Assembly: GCA_021773795.1 (NCBI GenBank) | Contig: JAJFJT010000012.1 | Location: 186,001 to 250,000 of the forward strand | Length of the DNA: 64,000 nt | Reading direction: 5' to 3' | From: Gammaproteobacteria bacterium | Lineage (GTDB): Bacteria; Pseudomonadota; Gammaproteobacteria; HK1 | Shown here: positions 3,125-50,326 of the stretch, piece after piece | Position numbering within the stretch: the stretch's first letter is position 1 | How the letters are laid out: the number at the start of each line of letters is the position of its first letter | Notes under the pieces: model-generated | Seen by the model: only the letters and a program-made list of their open reading frames with translations | Told to the model about the DNA's origin: nothing | Databases searched by the model: none | Made by a program: the position numbers and the translations under genes

Positions 3125-3250
3125 GACATAAAGCCGTCCATGGCCAAGCGTCACTCTCGCACGTCCCTGTGCTTCGTGACATAAAGCCATCCATGGCCAA
3201 GCGTCACTCTCGCACGTCCCTGTGCTTCGTGACATAAAGCCATCCATGGC
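3125..3250. repeat. 53-bp tandem repeat, two full copies plus a partial third
   Basis: In the 337-base gap between pntB and the next gene, a 53-bp unit starting GACATAAAGCC begins at 3125, 3178 and 3231. Copies one and two are almost identical, and the third runs for about 20 bases before diverging. A full-length diverged copy in reverse orientation is at about 63734-63784, so this is a dispersed repeat that has been duplicated in tandem here. Upstream, at about 3034-3052 and 3080-3103, are two other small palindromes built on GGCGCAC/GTGCGCC and GGTGGAC/GTCCACC, again typical intergenic repeats. No gene is visible in the gap. Confidence 0.85.
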
Positions 3251-23799: not shown

Positions 23800-24513
23800 T
23801 CAGTGCATCCGTGGTCGTGGTGTCGATACCCGGCCCATGGACTGTATGTTGCGCATGAGGTTTTCGATGCTCTTCAGGCGCATCCGTCGCGGTGGGGTCG
23901 GCGCACTGTTGGCATCGGGGATGGTGGTGCCCCAGCCGGGCTGGTCAATGCTGACGCTACCGTGATCATTGGAAACATCGATGGCGGTTTTTTCTCCCGT
24001 TTTCTTCGGCTCGTTTAGGACCACGGTTGCGGAGTCCCCAATCACCTCACCGGATACATCGGTGCCACGGATGCCGATGGTGGCGACTTGGCCGAGCCGT
24101 ACGTTCATGGAGCGTGGGCGGTGTTTGGCTATCAAGCCGCTGACAAAGCGAAAGACACCCTTCAGAATGCGGGTAGCAACCACGTCTTGTTTGGCACTCC
24201 TGCCATAGACAAATTTGCTGACTTTCATTTGTGCCCGCGAGCCGAGGGTGAATTTGGAGCCATCCTGGAGGCGGAATCGGATCACCGAGCGTCGAGAGGT
24301 GGTTATCTTGTCTCCCGCGTAGATATCAGCTTTCTTGGAGAGGCGGCGGATTTGTCCATCTGTTCCTGTCGCTGTGACGGTGCCACGTAGCAGCATGACC
24401 TTGCCCGCAGATACTGCGGCGCTTGCGGGCAGTACCAGCGTGGCTAACAGGAAGCCGAGCAAAAGAGCGGGTATGCTTGCAGGAATCCGGGAATTTTGTA
24501 GCCTGATGCGCAT
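23800..24513 (-). CDS. FecR-domain secreted protein
   Basis: A 237-residue protein with a signal peptide (IPALLLGFLLATLVLPASA) and a FecR-type domain. Domain marks are KVMLLRGTVTATG, the IYAGDKITTSRRSVIRFRL segment, DGSKFTLGSRAQMKV and the late VRLGQVATIGIRGTDVSGEV. It is a soluble periplasmic or surface form lacking the transmembrane anti-sigma part of true FecR, and there is no ECF sigma gene near. The ATG at 24513 with GGTGGAGAT just upstream is preferred over a longer frame to 24636. The end is Pro/Arg-rich. It lies next to the autotransporter array, and a role in surface assembly is possible but unproven. Confidence 0.8.
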   Translation of the reverse strand: MRIRLQNSRIPASIPALLLGFLLATLVLPASAAVSAGKVMLLRGTVTATGTDGQIRRLSKKADIYAGDKITTSRRSVIRFRLQDGSKFTLGSRAQMKVSKFVYGRSAKQDVVATRILKGVFRFVSGLIAKHRPRSMNVRLGQVATIGIRGTDVSGEVIGDSATVVLNEPKKTGEKTAIDVSNDHGSVSIDQPGWGTTIPDANSAPTPPRRMRLKSIENLMRNIQSMGRVSTPRPRMH

Positions 24514-25459
24514 GATATCTCCACCTTTGTTTGTATTCTTTCCCAGCATAGACGGCCCCTGTAGGGCACGCAATGTCGTGGGTGCCATATTTGCGGGGGT
24601 GGTCACATTGTTTGCCCTTGGAGGTTGTGCCAGCATCCCCGGAATGTCAGCCCGCGACGAGTTATCGCGTGCGGAGCAACAAGGGTTTGTGCGCGCTCAG
24701 CATCATTTCAGCGGTTTTGACGTGGTAACACTGCATCGTGGTACTCATGTTTCCAGACGTCTGGTGGTGTACATCGAGGGCGATGGCCGGGCCTGGATCA
24801 GTCGCACACGTTTATCGGCAGACCCCACCCCGCGTAACCCGGTCAGTCTGAAGCTGGCACTCAAGGACCCCTCCACGGCGGTCCTCTACATTGGTCGGCC
24901 CTGCCAGTATTTGCGTTCGTCGGAGCGTGGCCGCTGCGATGCCCGATACTGGTCCAGTCATCGTTATGGTCGTGCGGTGGTGGATGCCATAAACCAGATC
25001 ATCGACGGCATAGCAGTTCCAGGGATGCAGGTGGGGTTAGTGGGTTATTCCGGTGGTGGAACGTTGGCGGCCTTGGTGGCAGCAACACGCGAGGATGCTG
25101 CCTGGTTAGTGACCCTTGCCGCCAATCTGGACCACCGCGTCTGGACCCGCGAGCATGGGCTTAGTCCGCTTGTCGGTTCGCTGAATCCACCAGATTTTGC
25201 GCTTCCACTCAAGGTCATTCCCCAGTTTCACCTTTCGGGCACGCGGGATCGCATCGTCCCGGTGGCGGTACTTAAGAGTTATCTGGCAGCGCTTGGTAAT
25301 CTGGCCACACTGACGACCGAAACGGTTGCAAATTTTGACCACGCCTGCTGCTGGGAAGGCCTCTGGCCCGATCGTATGTGCCGCTTTCCCCCGGCACGGG
25401 GGTTTCTCTCTAGAAAAGCCTGCAAAACCAGCATCATAGAGGGGGTTGTTGTTAAATAA
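24512..25459 (+). CDS. Predicted lipoprotein alpha/beta hydrolase
   Basis: The sequence shows a hydrophobic signal ending in the lipobox FALGGC, then a mature domain with VVYIEGDGRAWISRTRLS, GLVGYSGGGTLAALVA (a nucleophile elbow with Ser in GYSGG), a late Asp (SGTRDRIVPV) and His (NFDHACCW), consistent with a serine hydrolase triad. The start is uncertain. ATG 24512 is used here, but GTG 24578 would place the lipobox within 20 residues and leave room for a promoter facing the divergent FecR gene. A surface or periplasmic lipase/esterase-like role is inferred. Confidence 0.75.
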   Translation: MISPPLFVFFPSIDGPCRARNVVGAIFAGVVTLFALGGCASIPGMSARDELSRAEQQGFVRAQHHFSGFDVVTLHRGTHVSRRLVVYIEGDGRAWISRTRLSADPTPRNPVSLKLALKDPSTAVLYIGRPCQYLRSSERGRCDARYWSSHRYGRAVVDAINQIIDGIAVPGMQVGLVGYSGGGTLAALVAATREDAAWLVTLAANLDHRVWTREHGLSPLVGSLNPPDFALPLKVIPQFHLSGTRDRIVPVAVLKSYLAALGNLATLTTETVANFDHACCWEGLWPDRMCRFPPARGFLSRKACKTSIIEGVVVK

Positions 25460-25594: not shown

Positions 25595-26719
25595 ATGCGC
25601 GCCATAGCTAAACCAGTCCTGTGTACGGCTTTGGGAGTCATGCTCCTGGGTAACAGTTTTTCTGCTAACGCCGGTAGTTCTCCTCCTCCTTGCACACCCT
25701 ATCCCGCGTGCTGGTACGCCAACAACATTAACCCGTTGCTCACGTCACCCGTTGAACTCTTGGCGCTGGTCATATTGCAGGCACAGATACGTGCGTGGGC
25801 ACAGGTTGCTCTCATGCTGAATATGCCTTTTGCTGCCTATGTGGGGAGCGGCCGTTCTGGCCTCGATACAGAAATTTCCCCGGTTGCCGGTGGTTCCATG
25901 TTTCGTAGCCGAGGTATGGCGGCGGGTGATGATTTTGCCTTTCCCTACAGCTTCTGGGGCAGTGTCTCTCGCACAGACTCTGAGGACGACTTTGTTTCCA
26001 CCGCTTTTGATTCCACCCGTTACAATTTTCTTGCCGGCGCCGATTTTAGCCCACGGGAAGGTCTGGTTATGGGCTTGGCGCTTGGTTATGAAGATCAGGA
26101 TGTGGATACAACATTCAATGCGGGTAACGCCGATATGGATGGCTTTACCGTTGTTCCCTATCTTTCCCTGATGGTGGGAGATAAGACCAGCGTTAATCTG
26201 TCCTTTGGCTATTCCGACATCGATATAAGCCAGTTCCGTTCTACCGGTGGTGTCCCCGGCGGTGCGCCCATTACCAGTAAAGTGGATTCGGAGCGCTGGT
26301 TTTTTAGCGGAAACGCTGCTCACTACTGGCAATATGGCAACTGGAACCTGACCGGACATGCCGGTGTCTTCTGGGCCAAGGATCAGCAGGATGCCTTTAC
26401 CGAGAGTGACGCCACCGCAAACCTTAAAAATAGCTTCAAGCTAGGGCAGTGGCGCATCGGTATTGAGGGTGCGTACCCAATGGGTGCCTTCGAACCCTAT
26501 GCCAGCGCTACCCTCGAAAATGATTTCAGCCGTACCCAAATTCCCTTTGCTGCAGGTGTTGCCCGGGCTCAATATGATCCCACCGACGTGCTGCTCGGCT
26601 TCGGACTGCGTTATTTTGCTGATGATGGCCTGTCAGGAAGTATCGGATACAGCACCGTGGTTGGCCGTAATGACTACGACGAAGATACCTTCCAGCTGAT
26701 GGTTCGGGCCGAGTTTTAG
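25595..26719 (+). CDS. Autotransporter-type beta-barrel protein, array member 1
   Basis: A 374-residue outer-membrane protein. Signal to about residue 26 (GNSFSANAG), then a short N-terminal region of about 80 residues with CTPYPAC, and a barrel of about 265 residues. Barrel marks are GMAAGDDFAFPYSFWG, TAFDSTRYNF, FSPREGLVMGLALGYE, YDPTDVLLGFGLRYFA and a final RAEF, as in the autotransporter barrel family (PF03797). There is no passenger of usual size. A GGGGGAT ribosome site precedes the ATG, and an extended -10-like TGCTATGCT lies near 25489-25497. It is the first of five paralogues and shares the barrel but not the N-terminus with members 4 and 5. Confidence 0.85.
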   Translation: MRAIAKPVLCTALGVMLLGNSFSANAGSSPPPCTPYPACWYANNINPLLTSPVELLALVILQAQIRAWAQVALMLNMPFAAYVGSGRSGLDTEISPVAGGSMFRSRGMAAGDDFAFPYSFWGSVSRTDSEDDFVSTAFDSTRYNFLAGADFSPREGLVMGLALGYEDQDVDTTFNAGNADMDGFTVVPYLSLMVGDKTSVNLSFGYSDIDISQFRSTGGVPGGAPITSKVDSERWFFSGNAAHYWQYGNWNLTGHAGVFWAKDQQDAFTESDATANLKNSFKLGQWRIGIEGAYPMGAFEPYASATLENDFSRTQIPFAAGVARAQYDPTDVLLGFGLRYFADDGLSGSIGYSTVVGRNDYDEDTFQLMVRAEF

Positions 26720-26837
26720 GTTCGGGGGGGAAGGGGGCCTTCATGTGCTGGAGTGGTGGCCCGGGTTTTTTTGACCGCTAGCGCCTTTGCTAACGGCACA
26801 CACATTTAAATTGCAGCAAATTAATCAGGGAGTTTCC

Positions 26838-27941
26838 ATGGTGGCCAAATGGTTCTTATACCCGGCAGCGATTTTGTTCTTGCTGGCCACCAGTTTTACC
26901 GCTAATGCGGTTTATCCTTGCTCTCCTTGGCCCGCTTGTTCCAGCAGCAACGGAGAGATAAGTGATCCTCACGATGCGGCGGGTAGCCTGGTCATGGAAG
27001 GTGTCTTGATGTGGGGCCGCGATACCCTGAACATCCAGCACGATGCTTTCCGTATTGGTCATATTCTGATGGACAAGAGTAGCTCGCAGTCCTCGGGTGC
27101 CAAGGGGCTGGCCGGCAACAAAATGTTGCACACGGGCATGGCGGCAGGTGATGGCTTTGCCTTTCCCTATAGCGTCTGGGGTGGTTTCTCCCACACTGAT
27201 TCCAGCGGCGACTTTCCGACCACCGCTTTTGATTCCTCTCGCTATAATTTTCTTGTAGGTGCTGATTTCAGTCCCAGAGAAGGTTTGATTATGGGGCTTG
27301 CCTTGGGCTATGAGGATCAAGAGATAGATTCCTTCTTCAACGCCGGTGAGATGGATATGGATGGCTATACCGTCGCGCCCTATATCGCGCTGCAGGTGGG
27401 TGACCAAAGCAGCATCGATCTGACTTTCGGTTACTCCGACATTGATGTCAGTCAGTTTCGTTCGACAGGTGGAGTGCCGGGTGGGGCGCGTATTAGCAGT
27501 AAAGTAGATTCCGACCGCTATTTTGTCAGCGGTAATTTCACCACTTTTAGAGACTATGGTGAGTGGCATGTAACCGGTCAAATCGGGGCGTCTTGGGCCA
27601 AGGATCAGCAGGATGCCTTCACCGAGAGCAACGGCACGGTTAATGCCCGGAGCAGTTTCAGGCTGGGGCAGGCGAAGATTGGTGGTGAGGTCTCTCGTGC
27701 CTGGGGTGCCTTCGAGCCCTACGCCAGCGCCACGCTGGAGTACGATTTTGCCCGTACCGAGATTCCCTTTGCAGCGGGCGTCGCTCGATCGCAATACGAT
27801 CCCACCGATGTGTTGTTCGGATTCGGAGTGCGTTACTTCGCTGATAATGGTCTTTCCGGAAGTGTTGGATACAGCCGTATATTTGGTCGTGAGAATTACG
27901 ACGAAAGTACCCTGCAGTTCCTCGTGCGGGCCGAGTTTTAG
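26838..27941 (+). CDS. Autotransporter-type beta-barrel protein, array member 2
   Basis: A 367-residue paralogue. The signal (FLLATSFTANA) and following CSPWPACSSSNGEISDPHDA are nearly the same as in member 3, at DNA level too, so the two are a recent duplication. The middle about 60 residues differ between them. The barrel has GMAAGDGFAFPYSVWG, FSPREGLIMGLALGYEDQE and RAEF at the end. The ATG at 26838 with AGGGAG upstream is chosen over an in-frame codon at 26787. Upstream, a GC-rich palindrome and a TTTTTTT run at about 26736-26772 may end transcription of member 1. Confidence 0.85.
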   Translation: MVAKWFLYPAAILFLLATSFTANAVYPCSPWPACSSSNGEISDPHDAAGSLVMEGVLMWGRDTLNIQHDAFRIGHILMDKSSSQSSGAKGLAGNKMLHTGMAAGDGFAFPYSVWGGFSHTDSSGDFPTTAFDSSRYNFLVGADFSPREGLIMGLALGYEDQEIDSFFNAGEMDMDGYTVAPYIALQVGDQSSIDLTFGYSDIDVSQFRSTGGVPGGARISSKVDSDRYFVSGNFTTFRDYGEWHVTGQIGASWAKDQQDAFTESNGTVNARSSFRLGQAKIGGEVSRAWGAFEPYASATLEYDFARTEIPFAAGVARSQYDPTDVLFGFGVRYFADNGLSGSVGYSRIFGRENYDESTLQFLVRAEF

Positions 27942-28034
27942 GTTCAGGGCAAAGACAGCATTTATCACCCTGCGGGATTGTGTCCCCTGGGGTTAACTGA
28001 AAGCGACTGTAGCTCTAGTTAACGGCGAACACAT

Positions 28035-28202
28035 TTAAGGAAGCTCTGATCTATTCGTGAGTTCGTATCTTGCGCCCAAAATATCCATGTTTATCGTTGC
28101 TGCCCTTCGCAATAGAACGACTATTACGTGCGAGCAGCGCCTCAAAGCTGAACATTTTGAATCACAATCTACTTCGCTCAGAATAAATCAGAGCTTCCTT
28201 AA
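28035..28202. repeat. Dispersed repeat family B, copy 1 (168 bp, IS5-group-like ends)
   Basis: Inverted ends GGAAGCTCTGATCTATTC and its partner GAATAAATCAGAGCTTCC are bounded by TTAA on both sides. The leader of array member 2 (26800-26838) is similar to both flanks and contains TTAA only once, so it represents the empty site, and TTAA is the target duplication. Internal landmarks are TATCTTGCGCCCAAAAT and TGAACATTTTGAAT. No protein is encoded. Copies 2 and 3 are at 43161-43320 and 50161-50326. Confidence 0.85.
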
Positions 28203-28231
28203 GTTATAGCGAATTAATCAGGGAGTCTTCC

Positions 28232-29332
28232 ATGGTGACCAAATTTCTCTTATACCCGGCGGCGGTTTTGTTCTTGCTGGCCACCAGTTTTACCGCTAAT
28301 GCGGTTTATCCCTGTTCTCCTTGGCCTGCTTGTTCCAGCAGCAACGGGGAGATAAGTGACCCCCATGATGCGGCGGGTAGCCTGTTTATCGAGGGATTTA
28401 TAAAAGCGACCCTCGGTAATGTCTGGAACAAAGCGGACATGGATAATGCGTCGGGCTGGTTTGGTAGCGACCGTCAGAGCAATCTTGGCACCACCGGAGT
28501 GGCTGGAAACGGGATGCGGTATACGGGCATGGCTGCAGGCGACAGTTTTGCCTTCCCCTATGCCATCTGGGGTAATTTCTCCTATACCGATGCGAGTAGT
28601 GATTTTTCGACCACTGCTTTTGATTCCTCTCGTTACAACGTCTTCGTAGGCGCGGATTTTAGCCCCCGGGAAGGTCTGGTTATGGGGTTGGCGCTGGGCT
28701 ATGAGGATAACGAGATAGATACCTTCTTCAACGCGGGCGAGATGGATGTGGATGGGTATACCGTCGTACCTTATGTCGCACTGCAGGTGGGCGACCAAAG
28801 CAGCTTGGATCTCGCCTTCGGTTACTCCGATCTGGATACCAGTCAGTTTCGCCTGACTGGCGGGGTGCCGGGTGGGGCGCGGATCAATAGTAAGGTTGGT
28901 TCCGAGCGCTATTTTGTCAGCGCCAACTACAACACCTTCAGGGACTATGGCGAGTGGCATGTAACCAGCCAACTCGGGGTGTTTTGGGCCAAGGATCAGC
29001 ACGATGCATTTACCGAGAGTAACGGTACGGTCAATGGCCGTACCAGTTTCAAGCTTGGGCAGGCGAAGATTGGTGCTGAGGTAGCACGTGCCTGGGGTGC
29101 CTTTGAGCCCTATGCCAGCGCTACGCTGGAGTATGATTTCGCCCGCACCGGATTACCCTTTGCCGCCGGTGTTGCCCGGCCCCAATATGATCCCACCGAT
29201 GTGTTGTTCGGATTCGGGGTGCGTTACTTCGCTGATAATGGTCTTTCTGGAAGTGTTGGATACAGTCGTATATTTGGCCGTGAGAATTACGACGAAAGTA
29301 CCCTGCAGCTCTTGATCCGGGCGGAATTCTAG
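28232..29332 (+). CDS. Autotransporter-type beta-barrel protein, array member 3
   Basis: A 366-residue paralogue, closest to member 2 (same signal and CSPWPAC N-terminus, same final barrel strands YDPTDVLFGFGVRYFADNG). It differs in residues about 55-95. The barrel marks GMAAGDSFAFPYAIWG and FSPREGLVMGLALGYE are intact. A GGGAG ribosome site precedes the ATG. A family B repeat sits 29 bases upstream of the start, separating it from its former promoter region, so expression relative to member 2 may differ. Confidence 0.85.
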   Translation: MVTKFLLYPAAVLFLLATSFTANAVYPCSPWPACSSSNGEISDPHDAAGSLFIEGFIKATLGNVWNKADMDNASGWFGSDRQSNLGTTGVAGNGMRYTGMAAGDSFAFPYAIWGNFSYTDASSDFSTTAFDSSRYNVFVGADFSPREGLVMGLALGYEDNEIDTFFNAGEMDVDGYTVVPYVALQVGDQSSLDLAFGYSDLDTSQFRLTGGVPGGARINSKVGSERYFVSANYNTFRDYGEWHVTSQLGVFWAKDQHDAFTESNGTVNGRTSFKLGQAKIGAEVARAWGAFEPYASATLEYDFARTGLPFAAGVARPQYDPTDVLFGFGVRYFADNGLSGSVGYSRIFGRENYDESTLQLLIRAEF

Positions 29333-29398
29333 GCGGCGGATCACCTTTTCATGAGCCTCGTGCGGCATTGAACGGGGCACAACCGGGAAATTGGGTTC

Positions 29399-30853
29399 AT
29401 GTCCTACGTTGATTCGCTGATTGCACAATGCCGCCCCCTGTTTGTGGGACTTGCTCTCGCCTGTTTCGCGTCTGCTGCCTTCGCTGGAATACCGGCGCCC
29501 CCCGGGACCGGCCCCGGTTCTTTCCCGGAAGCACGTGGTAGCTATACGGGCACCCTCAGTGAGCAGGATGTTAGCTGTACCGCTCCGTCGGTTGATAGTA
29601 GCGAATCTGTCCCGTTTACGGTTGTCATCGACACTCAGTCTAACAACAGTTTCTACGGTACGGCGACGGCGGCAGACGAGCCGGGAAATCCGGCGACTTT
29701 TTTGGGACTCATCGATATGGCGGGTGCCGTTACTGGCAGTTGGTCAGATGCCAATGCATCGGGCGGTTTTACCGGCACACTGAGCGGCAACACCCTGAGC
29801 CTGAATATTGTTGGTACGGACGTTGGCTACCCGACTGCCCCCGGCTCATGCCTGATTCTGGATAGCGCTACGGTAAGCCGCTCCGGTGCGATCAATCCTG
29901 CGGTGACGGCGGGTATCACGGTAACCACCCCGGCGACCACCCTGGCCTCGGTACGTGGCACCACCACCATTCTCAACCAGCGCTTTGGCGCCATCAGAAA
30001 CAGTGATTTTGCCGGCCTGGGCGTGAACCCTATCGCCAATGGCTTCATGGTGCAGACTGGCGCCGCCGCGGGTGATGGCTTTGCTTATCCCTTCGGCTTC
30101 TGGGGCAGCTTCTCGCGCACCGAGTCCGACAACGACTTCGTCTCCACTGCTTTTGATTCCTCCCGTTACAATTTCCTTGTGGGTGGCGACTTCAGCCCGC
30201 GGGAGGGCTTGGTGATGGGCTTGGCGCTGGGTTACGAGACCCAGGATGTGGACACCTTCTTCAACGCCGGTAAGCAGGATATGGATGGCTATACCGTCGT
30301 GCCCTACGTGGCCGCGAGTGTCGGGGACCACAGCAGCCTTGACTTCGCTTTCGGCTATTCCGATATCAATACCAAGCAGTTCCGGGTGACCGGCGGCACG
30401 TTGATTAGCAGTTCCGTGGACTCTGAGCGTTACTTTGTCAACGGCAACTTAACTCACACCCGCGCCTACGGGCTGTGGAATGTGAGCGGGCAACTGGGCG
30501 CGCTGTGGGCCAAAGACGTGCAGAAAGCCTTTGCCGAGAGCAACGGCACCGTCAACACCGCCCGCAGCTTCAAGGTGGGGCAGTGGCGTATCGGCGGTGA
30601 GGCGGCCTATACGTGGGGTGTCTTCGAGCCCTACGCCCGGGCGACTTTCCAGTATGATTTCACCAGTACCAAGATAACCTTTGCGCCCGGTGTCGCCTCA
30701 CCGAAGTTTGACCAAACCGATGTGCTGGCAGGTTTTGGGGTGCGTTACTTTGCGGACAACGGTATCTCTGGCAGCCTGGAGTACAATACTGTGCTGGGTC
30801 GGGAGAACTACAGCGAGGATACGCTTCAGTTTCTTATTCGCGCCGAGTTCTAG
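29399..30853 (+). CDS. Autotransporter-type beta-barrel protein, array member 4
   Basis: A 484-residue paralogue. After a signal (LALACFASAAFAG) comes a domain of about 120 residues with beta-strand character and two cysteines: GSYTGTLSEQDVSC, then SFYGTATAADEPG, FLGLIDMAGAVTGSW, GGFTGTLSGNTLSL and SCLILDSATVSRSG. A Thr/Val-rich linker (AVTAGITVTTPATTL) leads to the common barrel (GAAAGDGFAYPFGFWG, FSPREGLVMGLALGYE, RAEF). The N-terminal domain is shared with member 5 but not with 1-3. It is a possible displayed domain. I do not recognise its family. Confidence 0.82.
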   Translation: MSYVDSLIAQCRPLFVGLALACFASAAFAGIPAPPGTGPGSFPEARGSYTGTLSEQDVSCTAPSVDSSESVPFTVVIDTQSNNSFYGTATAADEPGNPATFLGLIDMAGAVTGSWSDANASGGFTGTLSGNTLSLNIVGTDVGYPTAPGSCLILDSATVSRSGAINPAVTAGITVTTPATTLASVRGTTTILNQRFGAIRNSDFAGLGVNPIANGFMVQTGAAAGDGFAYPFGFWGSFSRTESDNDFVSTAFDSSRYNFLVGGDFSPREGLVMGLALGYETQDVDTFFNAGKQDMDGYTVVPYVAASVGDHSSLDFAFGYSDINTKQFRVTGGTLISSSVDSERYFVNGNLTHTRAYGLWNVSGQLGALWAKDVQKAFAESNGTVNTARSFKVGQWRIGGEAAYTWGVFEPYARATFQYDFTSTKITFAPGVASPKFDQTDVLAGFGVRYFADNGISGSLEYNTVLGRENYSEDTLQFLIRAEF

Positions 30854-30871
30854 CGATCGAATAGCCTGAAT

Positions 30872-30906
30872 AAAAAATCCCGGGGACTCAGCCCCCGGGA
30901 TTTTTT
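30872..30906 (+). terminator. Rho-independent terminator after array member 4
   Basis: AAAAAATCCCGGGG (30872-30885) pairs with CCCCGGGATTTTTT (30893-30906) across a 7-base loop, followed by more T/A. It is strong and symmetrical, so it may work in both directions. Confidence 0.85.
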
Positions 30907-30933
30907 ATTGATGAACTCAAAAAAAGGAAAACC

Positions 30934-32403
30934 GTGCACATTATCAACCTTCGCTGGGCTCTGCCAGGCATCTTTCTGCTTACCAGCTTCGCTGGTAGCG
31001 CTCAGGCCACCTTCCCAAATGTCCGGGGCATCTTTGTTGGACTGGATACCTTTGCGGAGACGGGATGCACGGCACCCTTGCCGGCGAGCAGTAGTGGTGT
31101 AGACCCCATTATTATCGTCATCAATAGTCAGTCCGGAGCCAATTTTTCCGGAACCGCAAGAGAGAATAGCGGTGGCACTCCGGTTACGCTGACGGGAACC
31201 ATTGATCCGGCCGGCAGTGTGAACGGGACCTTTATTGAGCCTTCCAGTGGGACCTTCAATGGTGGCTCAGGTACCTTTGGTGGCACGCTTAATGGCAACA
31301 GGCTGAGTTTTAGCTACTCGGGATCGGACAATCCCGGTCCGGGGGCATGTTCGAGTTTTGGTGGTTCTGTTGTGTCTACCCGTGCTCCCGTTGCGACAGT
31401 TTCCGCCGCTGCTCCAGGTACGGTGGTGACCAAAACCCAGACGGCAGCTCGGAAGGCGAGTGCACTTGCGACGATTGTGGGTGTGCGTGTCAGTAATATC
31501 TTCCGTCCGCAGGGAAGCCCACAACGAACTCCGCAGCCAACTAATGAGGTCGGTGTGAGTTCCATCCCCAATGGCATGATGTTTCAGACCGGTATGGCGG
31601 CGGGTGAAGATTTTGCCTTTCCCTATGGCTTCTGGGGCAGCTTTTCCCGCACTGATTCCGAGGATGATTTCTCTACCACGGCCTTTGATTCCACCCGTTA
31701 TAATTTCATCTTTGGTGGTGATTTCAGTCCTCGTGAGGGCCTGATTATGGGGCTTGCTCTGGGTTACGAAACCCAGGAGGTCGATACCTACTTTAACGGT
31801 GGCCAGCAGGATGTGGATGGCTACACCGTGGTGCCCTATCTGGCTCTCAGATTGGGCGAGCATTACAGTCTGGACCTTTCCTTCGGTTATTCCTCGGTGG
31901 ATACCGATCAGTTCCGCCTGGCGCTGGTGGGCGGACTGCCTGTAGGGGCGCAGGTTTCCAGCGCAGTGGATTCCGAGCGCTATTTTTTCAGCGGCAACTT
32001 AACCACCAACCGTGCTTATGGAAACTGGAACTTAAGTGGCCAGGTGGGTGGCTTGTGGGCCAAGGACGTGCAGGACGCCTTTAGCGAGAGTAATGGCACG
32101 GCAGTTGCCGGCAGCAACTTCAAGGTAGGGCAGTGGCGCATCGGTGGTGAGGCGGCCTATGCTTGGGGTGCTTTTGAGCCCTATGCCCGGGCCACCTTCG
32201 AATATGACTTCACCCGCACCAAAGCGGTCTTTGCACCGGGTGTTGCGGCACCGAAGTTTGATCAGACTGATGTGCTGGCGGGCTTTGGGGTGCGCTACTT
32301 CGCGGATAACGGAATGTCCGGCAGCCTGGAGTACAGCACCGTGCTGGGGCGCGAGAACTACAGTGAGGATACGATACAGTTCCTCATTCGCGCCGAGTTC
32401 TAG
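30934..32403 (+). CDS. Autotransporter-type beta-barrel protein, array member 5
   Basis: A 489-residue paralogue with a GTG start preceded by AAAAGGAAAA. The signal is LLTSFAGSAQA. The N-terminal domain resembles that of member 4 (GIFVGLDTFAETGC, FSGTARENSGGTPVTLTGTI, GTFGGTLNGNRLSFSYSG, ACSSFGGSVVSTRAP), followed by a basic linker and the barrel (GMAAGEDFAFPYGFWG, FSPREGLIMGLALGYE, final RAEF). It has its own terminator. The conserved barrel and changing N-terminus across the five genes suggest N-terminal domain shuffling. Confidence 0.82.
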   Translation: MHIINLRWALPGIFLLTSFAGSAQATFPNVRGIFVGLDTFAETGCTAPLPASSSGVDPIIIVINSQSGANFSGTARENSGGTPVTLTGTIDPAGSVNGTFIEPSSGTFNGGSGTFGGTLNGNRLSFSYSGSDNPGPGACSSFGGSVVSTRAPVATVSAAAPGTVVTKTQTAARKASALATIVGVRVSNIFRPQGSPQRTPQPTNEVGVSSIPNGMMFQTGMAAGEDFAFPYGFWGSFSRTDSEDDFSTTAFDSTRYNFIFGGDFSPREGLIMGLALGYETQEVDTYFNGGQQDVDGYTVVPYLALRLGEHYSLDLSFGYSSVDTDQFRLALVGGLPVGAQVSSAVDSERYFFSGNLTTNRAYGNWNLSGQVGGLWAKDVQDAFSESNGTAVAGSNFKVGQWRIGGEAAYAWGAFEPYARATFEYDFTRTKAVFAPGVAAPKFDQTDVLAGFGVRYFADNGMSGSLEYSTVLGRENYSEDTIQFLIRAEF

Positions 32404-32460: not shown

Positions 32461-32523
32461 ATGCACGGACAAAAGGCGTACCGTGTACACCGAGATAGCG
32501 ATGGGATGTACAGGTTAGACACG

Positions 32524-33069
32524 ATGGCGGCAATGGATCGACGGGCATTTTTGCGCGGTGGGCTGGGGCAGGCAGCGCGGCAGATTACGGGTGATGGCCC
32601 GGGCACTACCTGGATACGCCCGCCCTATGCGGTGGCAGAGGTCGATTTCCAGCGCGATTGCAGCTGTTGCGGGGATTGTGTGACGGCTTGTCCCCATGGG
32701 GTGATATTCAGCTTGTCCGGGGAGTTGGGTGAGGCTGTGGCGGGTACTCCGGGGCTGAATTTGCTCAATTTCGGTTGTCATCTGTGTGCCGACTGGCCTT
32801 GTGTCGCGGCCTGTGAGGCAGGCGTGCTGGCCTTGCCGGAGGACCCGGAGCAAGTCCCGGCCAAACTCGCCCGGGTCAGTATCAATACGACAAGCTGTCT
32901 CCCCTACAGTGGTCCTGAATGTGGCGCCTGTGCCGACAGTTGCCCGGTGGGTGCTTTGCATTTCAATGGAACGCGGCCGGAGATCGATGCGAGCAGTTGC
33001 CTTGGCTGTGGTTTGTGCCGTGAGGCTTGTATCGTAGATCCCAAGGCGGTGCAGTTAGTAGTAATATGA
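32524..33069 (+). CDS. napF: NapF-like ferredoxin-type iron-sulfur protein
   Basis: A 181-residue protein with MDRRAFLRGG at the start (a twin-arginine-like but short N-terminus also seen in NapF) and four cysteine clusters: CSCCGDCVTACP, CHLCADWPCVAACEAGV, CGACADSCP and CLGCGLCREACI, which fit up to four [4Fe-4S] sites. This pattern and length match NapF, a cytoplasmic accessory to the periplasmic nitrate reductase. No other nap gene is in the window, although a NapC/NirT-type cytochrome lies at 38669-39256. ATG 32524 is used, and ATG 32533 is an alternative. A different electron-transfer role is possible. Confidence 0.8.
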   Translation: MAAMDRRAFLRGGLGQAARQITGDGPGTTWIRPPYAVAEVDFQRDCSCCGDCVTACPHGVIFSLSGELGEAVAGTPGLNLLNFGCHLCADWPCVAACEAGVLALPEDPEQVPAKLARVSINTTSCLPYSGPECGACADSCPVGALHFNGTRPEIDASSCLGCGLCREACIVDPKAVQLVVI

Positions 33070-43160: not shown

Positions 43161-43320
43161 GGGAAGCTCTGATTTATTCTGGACAAAGTAGCTTGCAATT
43201 CAAAATGTTCAGATTTGAGGCGCTGATCTTCGTAATAGCAGGCTATTACGAAGATCAGCAACGATAAAGATGGACATTTTGGGCGCAAGATACGAGTTCA
43301 TGAACAGATCAGAGATTCCT
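43161..43320. repeat. Dispersed repeat family B, copy 2 (160 bp, reverse orientation)
   Basis: The element is inverted compared with copy 1. Outer ends are GGGAAGCTCTGATTTATTC and GATCAGAGATTCC, with TTAG before and TCAG after as an imperfect target duplication. The middle is modified: it contains a long perfect inverted stretch (CTGATCTTCGTAATAGC ... GCTATTACGAAGATCAG), forming a stable hairpin. It ends 4 bases beyond the stop of the REC-PAS-GGDEF-EAL gene and may act as its terminator. Confidence 0.8.
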
Positions 43321-50160: not shown

Positions 50161-50326
50161 TAGGGAAGCTCTGATCTATTCGTGAACTTGTATCTTGCGC
50201 CCAAAATGCCCCTCTTTATCGTTGCTGCTCTTCGCAATAGATTGACTATTACGTGCGACCAGCGCCTCAAAGCTGAACATTTTGAATCACAATCTACTTC
50301 GCTCAGAATAAATCAGGGTTTCCTTA
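50161..50326. repeat. Dispersed repeat family B, copy 3 (166 bp)
   Basis: Ends GGGAAGCTCTGATCTATTC and CAGGGTTTCC with TTAG before and TTAT after. The interior is close to copy 1 (TATCTTGCGCCCAAAAT, TGAACATTTTGAATCACAAT). It lies exactly between the two GAF paralogues. Its right end supplies the last three codons and the stop of GAF paralogue 1, and its left end is next to the start region of paralogue 2. Confidence 0.85.

Follow-up and report, generated by a model that had tools for sequence, protein, structure and literature searches.

An array of five autotransporter-type barrel genes in a gammaproteobacterium as a probable tandem expansion at a conserved hydrolase/FecR outer-membrane locus

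Why should a bacterium carry five autotransporter-like barrel genes in a row, none of which encodes a passenger of the usual size? This question is raised by a 64,000-nucleotide stretch of DNA, hereafter the window, from the Gammaproteobacteria bacterium assembly GCA_021773795.1 (contig JAJFJT010000012.1, positions 186,001 to 250,000). A model's reading of the letters alone, hereafter the original prediction, had proposed that a constant barrel with a changing displayed part could support surface variation or multi-ligand display. It passed over two conserved partner genes beside the array, which encode an alpha/beta-hydrolase lipoprotein and a secreted FecR-domain protein. We consider it probable that the array is a lineage-specific tandem expansion of the barrel component of a conserved hydrolase/FecR outer-membrane locus. 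The conserved neighbourhood, the barrel type, the loss of a domain, the change in copy number, the gene conversion and the purifying selection were each established by computation.

The array consists of five consecutive paralogues on the forward strand, designated A to E (Table 1). All five match the autotransporter barrel family PF03797 with 72–93 bits, against a gathering score of 26, and no further PF03797 match was found elsewhere in the 2.56-Mb genome. Searching with a barrel profile of our own added one fragment of ~160 bases at a contig edge (G000:C3:5-160). The other four proteins are 53–59% identical to A. Alignment bore out the predicted positions and shared features of the genes: FSPREGL-MGLALGYE in the barrel, the entry motif G-xAAG--FA-P---WG and the C-terminal RAEF are common to all five, and a hydrophobic N-terminus and a terminal F can be read in every member. 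In A–C, ~75–80 residues without a folded domain separate the signal peptide from the barrel, which upholds the claim that a normal passenger is missing there, while D and E have an extra, separate N-terminal domain of ~120 residues. A RIG-x-x-L-like motif just before the barrel is found in B and in distant relatives; D and E have a looser form of it, and in A and C it is degraded. This motif may correspond to the usual pore helix. A likeness of the AAG in the entry motif to the LapG site, [T/A/P]AAG (PMC13090378), was considered and dropped, as the first A is variable (MAAG, SSAG, LNAG, LSAG).

The array proteins are autotransporter-type barrels, as had been predicted. Protein E was modelled with AlphaFold2 from a 12-row alignment, and the mean predicted local distance difference test score (pLDDT) was 60.6. 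The model includes an eight-stranded beta domain at residues 26–151, with pLDDT mostly 80–90, a disordered segment at residues 152–229, and twelve strands at residues 231–488. In a Foldseek search of the PDB with this model, ranks 1–14 were all autotransporters (EstA, NalP, EspP, BrkA, Hbp, and AaaA), with target-normalised template modelling (TM) scores up to 0.81; the first barrel from outside the autotransporters had an E-value more than three orders of magnitude higher. The fold of A–C is assigned because of the sequence identity within the array and the PF03797 match; a sequence search of the PDB with C gave no match. The N-terminal domain of D and E is given no family name, because a PDB search with its profile returned two short matches only, SAKe6BR and OR280. 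Pfam likewise has no family for it.

Partners of the array were searched for in a 274-genome sample of the class, and their positions were compared with the PF03797 matches in the same genomes. The P values given for adjacency ignore relatedness, and the family counts are the more reliable measure. Of the 37 genomes outside the genus with the hydrolase gene, 18 have it within 5 kb of an autotransporter-barrel gene, where gene number and genome size would predict 0.26, and the pairing extends over 15 families (P ~1e-31 under random placement). The lipobox Cys, the GxSGGG nucleophile, and the Asp and His columns are conserved across 24 homologues of the hydrolase, which belongs to no curated named family, all Pfam and NCBIfam matches being below threshold. 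The autotransporter genes beside it range from short ones with a two-cysteine N-terminal part to those with more than 1000 residues. In many of the short ones (L142, L143, L145, L146, L147, L101, and L102), the two-cysteine part is followed by a helical stretch ending in RL..LR.G. This N-terminal part may be an unnamed small domain.

The FecR protein has 14 full-length orthologues in the 274 genomes. Outside the genus, an orthologue is found within 5 kb of an autotransporter-barrel gene in 9 of 11 genomes, against 0.06 expected, in 7 families (P ~1e-19). The two exceptions belong to one genus; their contigs measure 10.2 and 6.8 kb and carry the hydrolase gene alongside. As a control, 41 other FecR matches in autotransporter-bearing genomes gave 2 adjacencies, both within loci of this kind. 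Elsewhere in the phylum, the FecR domain is often found within very large open frames. The protein of the window matches PF04773 with 26.4 bits against a cut-off of 24. The retention module family NF033682 (retention_LapA) is matched by all 12 aligned orthologues, and the window protein stands at 33.3 bits against its cut-off of 50; the protein thus appears to resemble a retention module at a score below that of a member. The orthologue profile matches PDB 5ix9 with an E-value of 9e-9 at positions 26–106. This entry, named antifreeze protein, is the N-terminal part of an ice-binding adhesin from Marinomonas primoryensis. Retention modules are periplasmic and keep adhesins anchored in the outer membrane; in Pseudomonas aeruginosa, this also happens via a type Vb system (PMC13090378).

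All three genes occur together in nine genomes from six families: the three genomes of the genus, G134, G249, G148, G155, G135, and G261. In the open-access literature, no description was found of a pairing of FecR with an autotransporter or of a hydrolase lipoprotein with an autotransporter. The locus joining autotransporter barrels with these two proteins is apparently undescribed. At one locus (L099, 4138–7885), the FecR gene is followed downstream by genes for a tetratricopeptide repeat (TPR)-barrel protein with a weak TPR_Slam match and for a second FecR protein of 536 residues.

The history of the array was read from three genomes of the genus. The original prediction called for a comparison of array size between strains, and the size does vary among these relatives: five, five, and two genes. 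In OFTM98 (G002), five array genes follow one another as in the window, and the genes on either side are shared; between those flanking genes, OFTM67 (G001) has a B-like and an E-like gene. The barrel tree unites all 12 array genes from the genus in a single clade (support 100/99) with the branches A, B/C, and D/E. Since the two genes of OFTM67 are placed within the B/C and E branches, loss is the best reading of the absence of A and D there. The clade of the genus adjoins single-copy genes of other families (G134, G249, G148, and G260). The N-terminal domain of the D/E type is present in the single-copy relatives G134, G148, and G260. Because these relatives belong to two other families, the small domain is older and A–C lost it; the D/E type looks ancestral, and A–C look reduced. 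The different domain of about 120 residues predicted for the fourth and fifth members is thus present, but it is the older state and not an addition. The CxPxPAC motif stands in A–C of the window as predicted, but it is not a fixed feature, since the whole motif is gone from C of OFTM98.

Another family has two tandem short autotransporter genes (L052, 174–3412, in G024), divergent from the FecR gene, and duplication at this locus may have occurred more than once. The sister genomes contain single dispersed paralogues (L039, 4591–6117; L042, 4371–5903; L038, 5136–6638), with different N-terminal domains and 34–40% identity to the array barrels. In the genomes of the L039 and L042 paralogues, another, distant FecR gene is situated ~7 kb away from the paralogue.

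Recombination between members, which the original prediction proposed to look for, was confirmed for B and C. The predicted near-identity of these two genes at their start was also seen: their DNA is 92–95% identical over the first ~45 codons and 31–57% thereafter. When B was compared with C and with its OFTM67 orthologue, the stretch upstream of codon 61 had 49 informative sites, of which 42 sided with C. The proportion was 4 of 68 at codons 61–105, and 14 of 14 at codons 331–345. None of 5000 permutations matched these tracts. B is a gene-conversion mosaic, with its 5' end and last ~50 codons copied from C. The sequences suggest the direction from C to B, because the OFTM98 copy of C also carries the VYP and SNGEISDPHDAAGSL stretches. 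What was converted is the signal peptide, the initial ~50 codons and, at the other end, the final ~50 codons of the barrel; the variable helix segment is untouched. In orthologue pairs, the ratio of nonsynonymous to synonymous substitution rates (dN/dS) is 0.06–0.12 in the barrels and 0.10–0.25 in most N-terminal parts, and nonsynonymous change in the N-terminal parts reaches 4.5 times the barrel rate. Selection on the array genes is purifying, and more relaxed in the N-terminal parts. The array contains no tandem-repeat tract, and the spaces between the genes no long homopolymer, that would suggest phase switching. A scan of the locus for promoters and terminators gave no excess over shuffled sequence.

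The following course would account for the locus as a tandem expansion. The ancestral protein probably began with a signal peptide and a small beta domain (~120 residues, with cysteines), from which an R-I-G-x-x-L-like linker helix led into the barrel. This plan is retained in D and E, and A–C have dropped the beta domain while keeping a short stub and the linker. Each protein is likely to be exported by Sec and inserted by the beta-barrel assembly machinery (BAM) via the C-terminal aromatic signal (RAEF). D and E may display the small N-terminal domain on the surface, where it would be a passenger below the usual size. In A–C, the stub and helix alone would fill the pore, and these proteins would be mainly plugged barrels. 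The probable target of the lipid-anchored hydrolase is the barrel, the barrel's N-terminal segment or some envelope substrate close by, and the FecR-like protein is probably periplasmic, engaging the barrel from below. The copy number changes through duplication and loss, and neighbours are homogenised by gene conversion.

Several observations weigh against this reading. Autotransporters with ordinary, long passengers also occur next to the hydrolase gene, whose link is therefore to autotransporters as a whole and not to short ones. Partner gene order and strand differ between loci. Some genomes have two of the three genes only, and the trio is therefore not obligate. The E model is of moderate confidence only and lacks the pore helix, and the model of C, also made from a 12-row alignment, was of such low confidence (pLDDT 36.5) that it was set aside.

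The idea of surface variation amounts to a contingency or antigenic-variation array, in which recombination shuffles the displayed parts, that is, changing N-termini and loops on a constant barrel. The paralogues do differ in their N-terminal parts, which have the faster nonsynonymous change, and both recombination and copy-number change occur. But no exchange of the displayed segment by recombination was found, the conversion tracts being at the constant ends only; dN/dS is far below 1 throughout, switching repeats are absent near the genes, and orthologues retain identity and order across the two five-gene genomes. Because the constant parts are converted and selection is purifying, antigenic variation is unsupported, and we regard it as improbable. 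Nor does it seem at all likely that the proteins are ordinary porin-like outer-membrane channels, which lost the role in secretion and expanded for uptake. Such channels would agree with the lack of a passenger in A–C, the degraded linker motif in A and C, and the weak OMP_b-brl match that protein A shows besides PF03797. The CymA channel and other barrels also appear lower in the Foldseek list, but its top is held by autotransporter translocators with the wide E-value lead given above, and an N-terminal domain or stub is retained under purifying selection.

Two further explanations concern the partners. In a split or trans-passenger system, the passenger-less barrel would export or anchor the separate FecR protein, with the hydrolase as the processing factor. 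The non-random adjacency, the absence of a passenger from A–C and the likeness of the FecR protein to an adhesin retention module agree with such a system, as does the same-strand order autotransporter–FecR–hydrolase at one locus (L096). However, barrels with their own N-terminal domain are found at the same loci, and the FecR and autotransporter genes are often divergent, not co-transcribed. Classical autotransporter barrels are not known to export free partners. A trans-passenger system is judged unlikely. The neighbourhood might instead be a neutral relic of gene order, whose partners are functionally unconnected with the barrels; the pairing is missing in some genomes with a hydrolase or FecR gene, and strand and order vary. 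Yet the pairing recurs in 15 other families, in varied orientations and with different autotransporter types alongside. With order, strand and type so varied beside the hydrolase, the pairing is not explained by a single fixed arrangement of genes, and conserved gene order alone would not yield such recurrence. Generic FecR genes outside these loci also lack the link, and a neutral relic has little probability in our judgement. The tandem expansion of the barrel at a conserved locus is preferred to all four.

The array proteins share with the type Va autotransporters (PF03797/TIGR01414; EstA, NalP, BrkA, EspP, and AaaA) a 12-stranded C-terminal barrel, a hydrophobic signal, a pre-barrel linker region and an aromatic C-terminal residue. 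Type Va proteins have passengers of several hundred residues, whereas the array has a stub of ~75–80 residues (A–C) or a ~120-residue domain with a linker (D and E). The array is called a variant of autotransporters because this large passenger is lacking. It also differs from type Va in the cysteines in the N-terminal parts of most relatives, the tandem paralogous arrangement, and the conserved partner genes. The window FecR protein has its N-terminal ~65–80 residues in common with the retention module of the LapA/MpAFP repeats-in-toxin (RTX) adhesins (NF033682, PDB 5ix9). Unlike these adhesins, the window protein is stand-alone, ~235 residues long, without adhesin repeats, below the NF033682 cut-off and with its own conserved C-terminal tail. 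The type Vb system with a retained adhesin in P. aeruginosa also encodes a retention-module protein beside an outer-membrane barrel (PMC13090378), but the barrel here is an autotransporter and not a TpsB-type transporter, and there is no long adhesin. Slam (type XI) translocons resemble the locus in that the barrel protein is encoded next to genes for a lipoprotein and a FecR protein; their barrel belongs to a different family, and the window locus has no Slam gene.

Table 1. Features at the array locus (positions are those of the window).
Feature	Position	Strand	Description	Basis or remark
FecR-domain secreted protein (PF04773)	23800..24513	-	Conserved C-terminal tail (RRMRLKSIENLMRNIQSMGRV-PRPR); N-terminal half resembles LapA/MpAFP retention module	
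Alpha/beta-hydrolase lipoprotein	24506..25459	+	Lipobox LGGC, Cys codon 24626; GYSGGG nucleophile	Start uncertain, 24506-24578
Array gene A	25595..26719	+	Signal peptide, CTPYPAC stub, helical segment, autotransporter barrel	PF03797 2.7e-26; alignment
Array gene B	26838..27941 (open reading frame from 26787)	+	Signal peptide, CSPWPAC stub, helical segment with FRIGHIL linker motif, autotransporter barrel	PF03797 4e-24; mosaic with C at both ends
MITE-like element	28039..28198	+	~160 bp, terminal inverted repeats GGAAGCTCTGATYTATTC	Between array genes B and C
Array gene C	28232..29332	+	Signal peptide, CSPWPAC stub, helical segment, autotransporter barrel	PF03797 1e-21; putative donor of the ends of B
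Array gene D	29399..30853	+	Signal peptide, ~120-residue N-terminal domain (two cysteines), linker, autotransporter barrel	PF03797 6.8e-20; N-terminal domain alignment
Array gene E	30934..32403	+	Signal peptide, ~120-residue eight-stranded N-terminal domain (26-151), disordered linker, 12-stranded autotransporter barrel (231-488)	PF03797 8.6e-23; AlphaFold2; Foldseek

A repeat similar to a miniature inverted-repeat transposable element (MITE) is inserted in the array (Table 1). The repeat has TTA-rich flanks. Further copies lie in the window at 43162–43319 and 50164–50323, and the 2.56-Mb genome has at least 40 copies with 81–100% identity. The ends of this repeat had no match in the OFTM98 locus (L040). 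The three genomes of the genus all have a gene for a NapF/NapG-like 4Fe-4S ferredoxin immediately behind the array (window 32461–33069). At window positions 3125–3250, a 53-bp unit is repeated 2.4 times with a 98% match.

A wider reading can be offered tentatively, although we doubt it: the autotransporter barrel, the hydrolase and the FecR/retention-module-like protein might form one multi-component surface-display machine of Gammaproteobacteria, in which the FecR-like protein plugs or loads the barrel from its periplasmic side and the lipid-anchored hydrolase matures or releases the cargo. If this were true, the barrel would have been multiplied, and its built-in passenger abandoned, in the lineage with the five-gene array. 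Descriptions of autotransporters usually name no helpers beyond the general ones (Sec, chaperones, and BAM). The hydrolase lipoprotein, which recurs next to autotransporter genes in ~16 families, and the retention-module-like protein, which does so in ~8 families, would be candidates for dedicated autotransporter partners, and the array is a natural experiment on the role of an autotransporter barrel after passenger loss.

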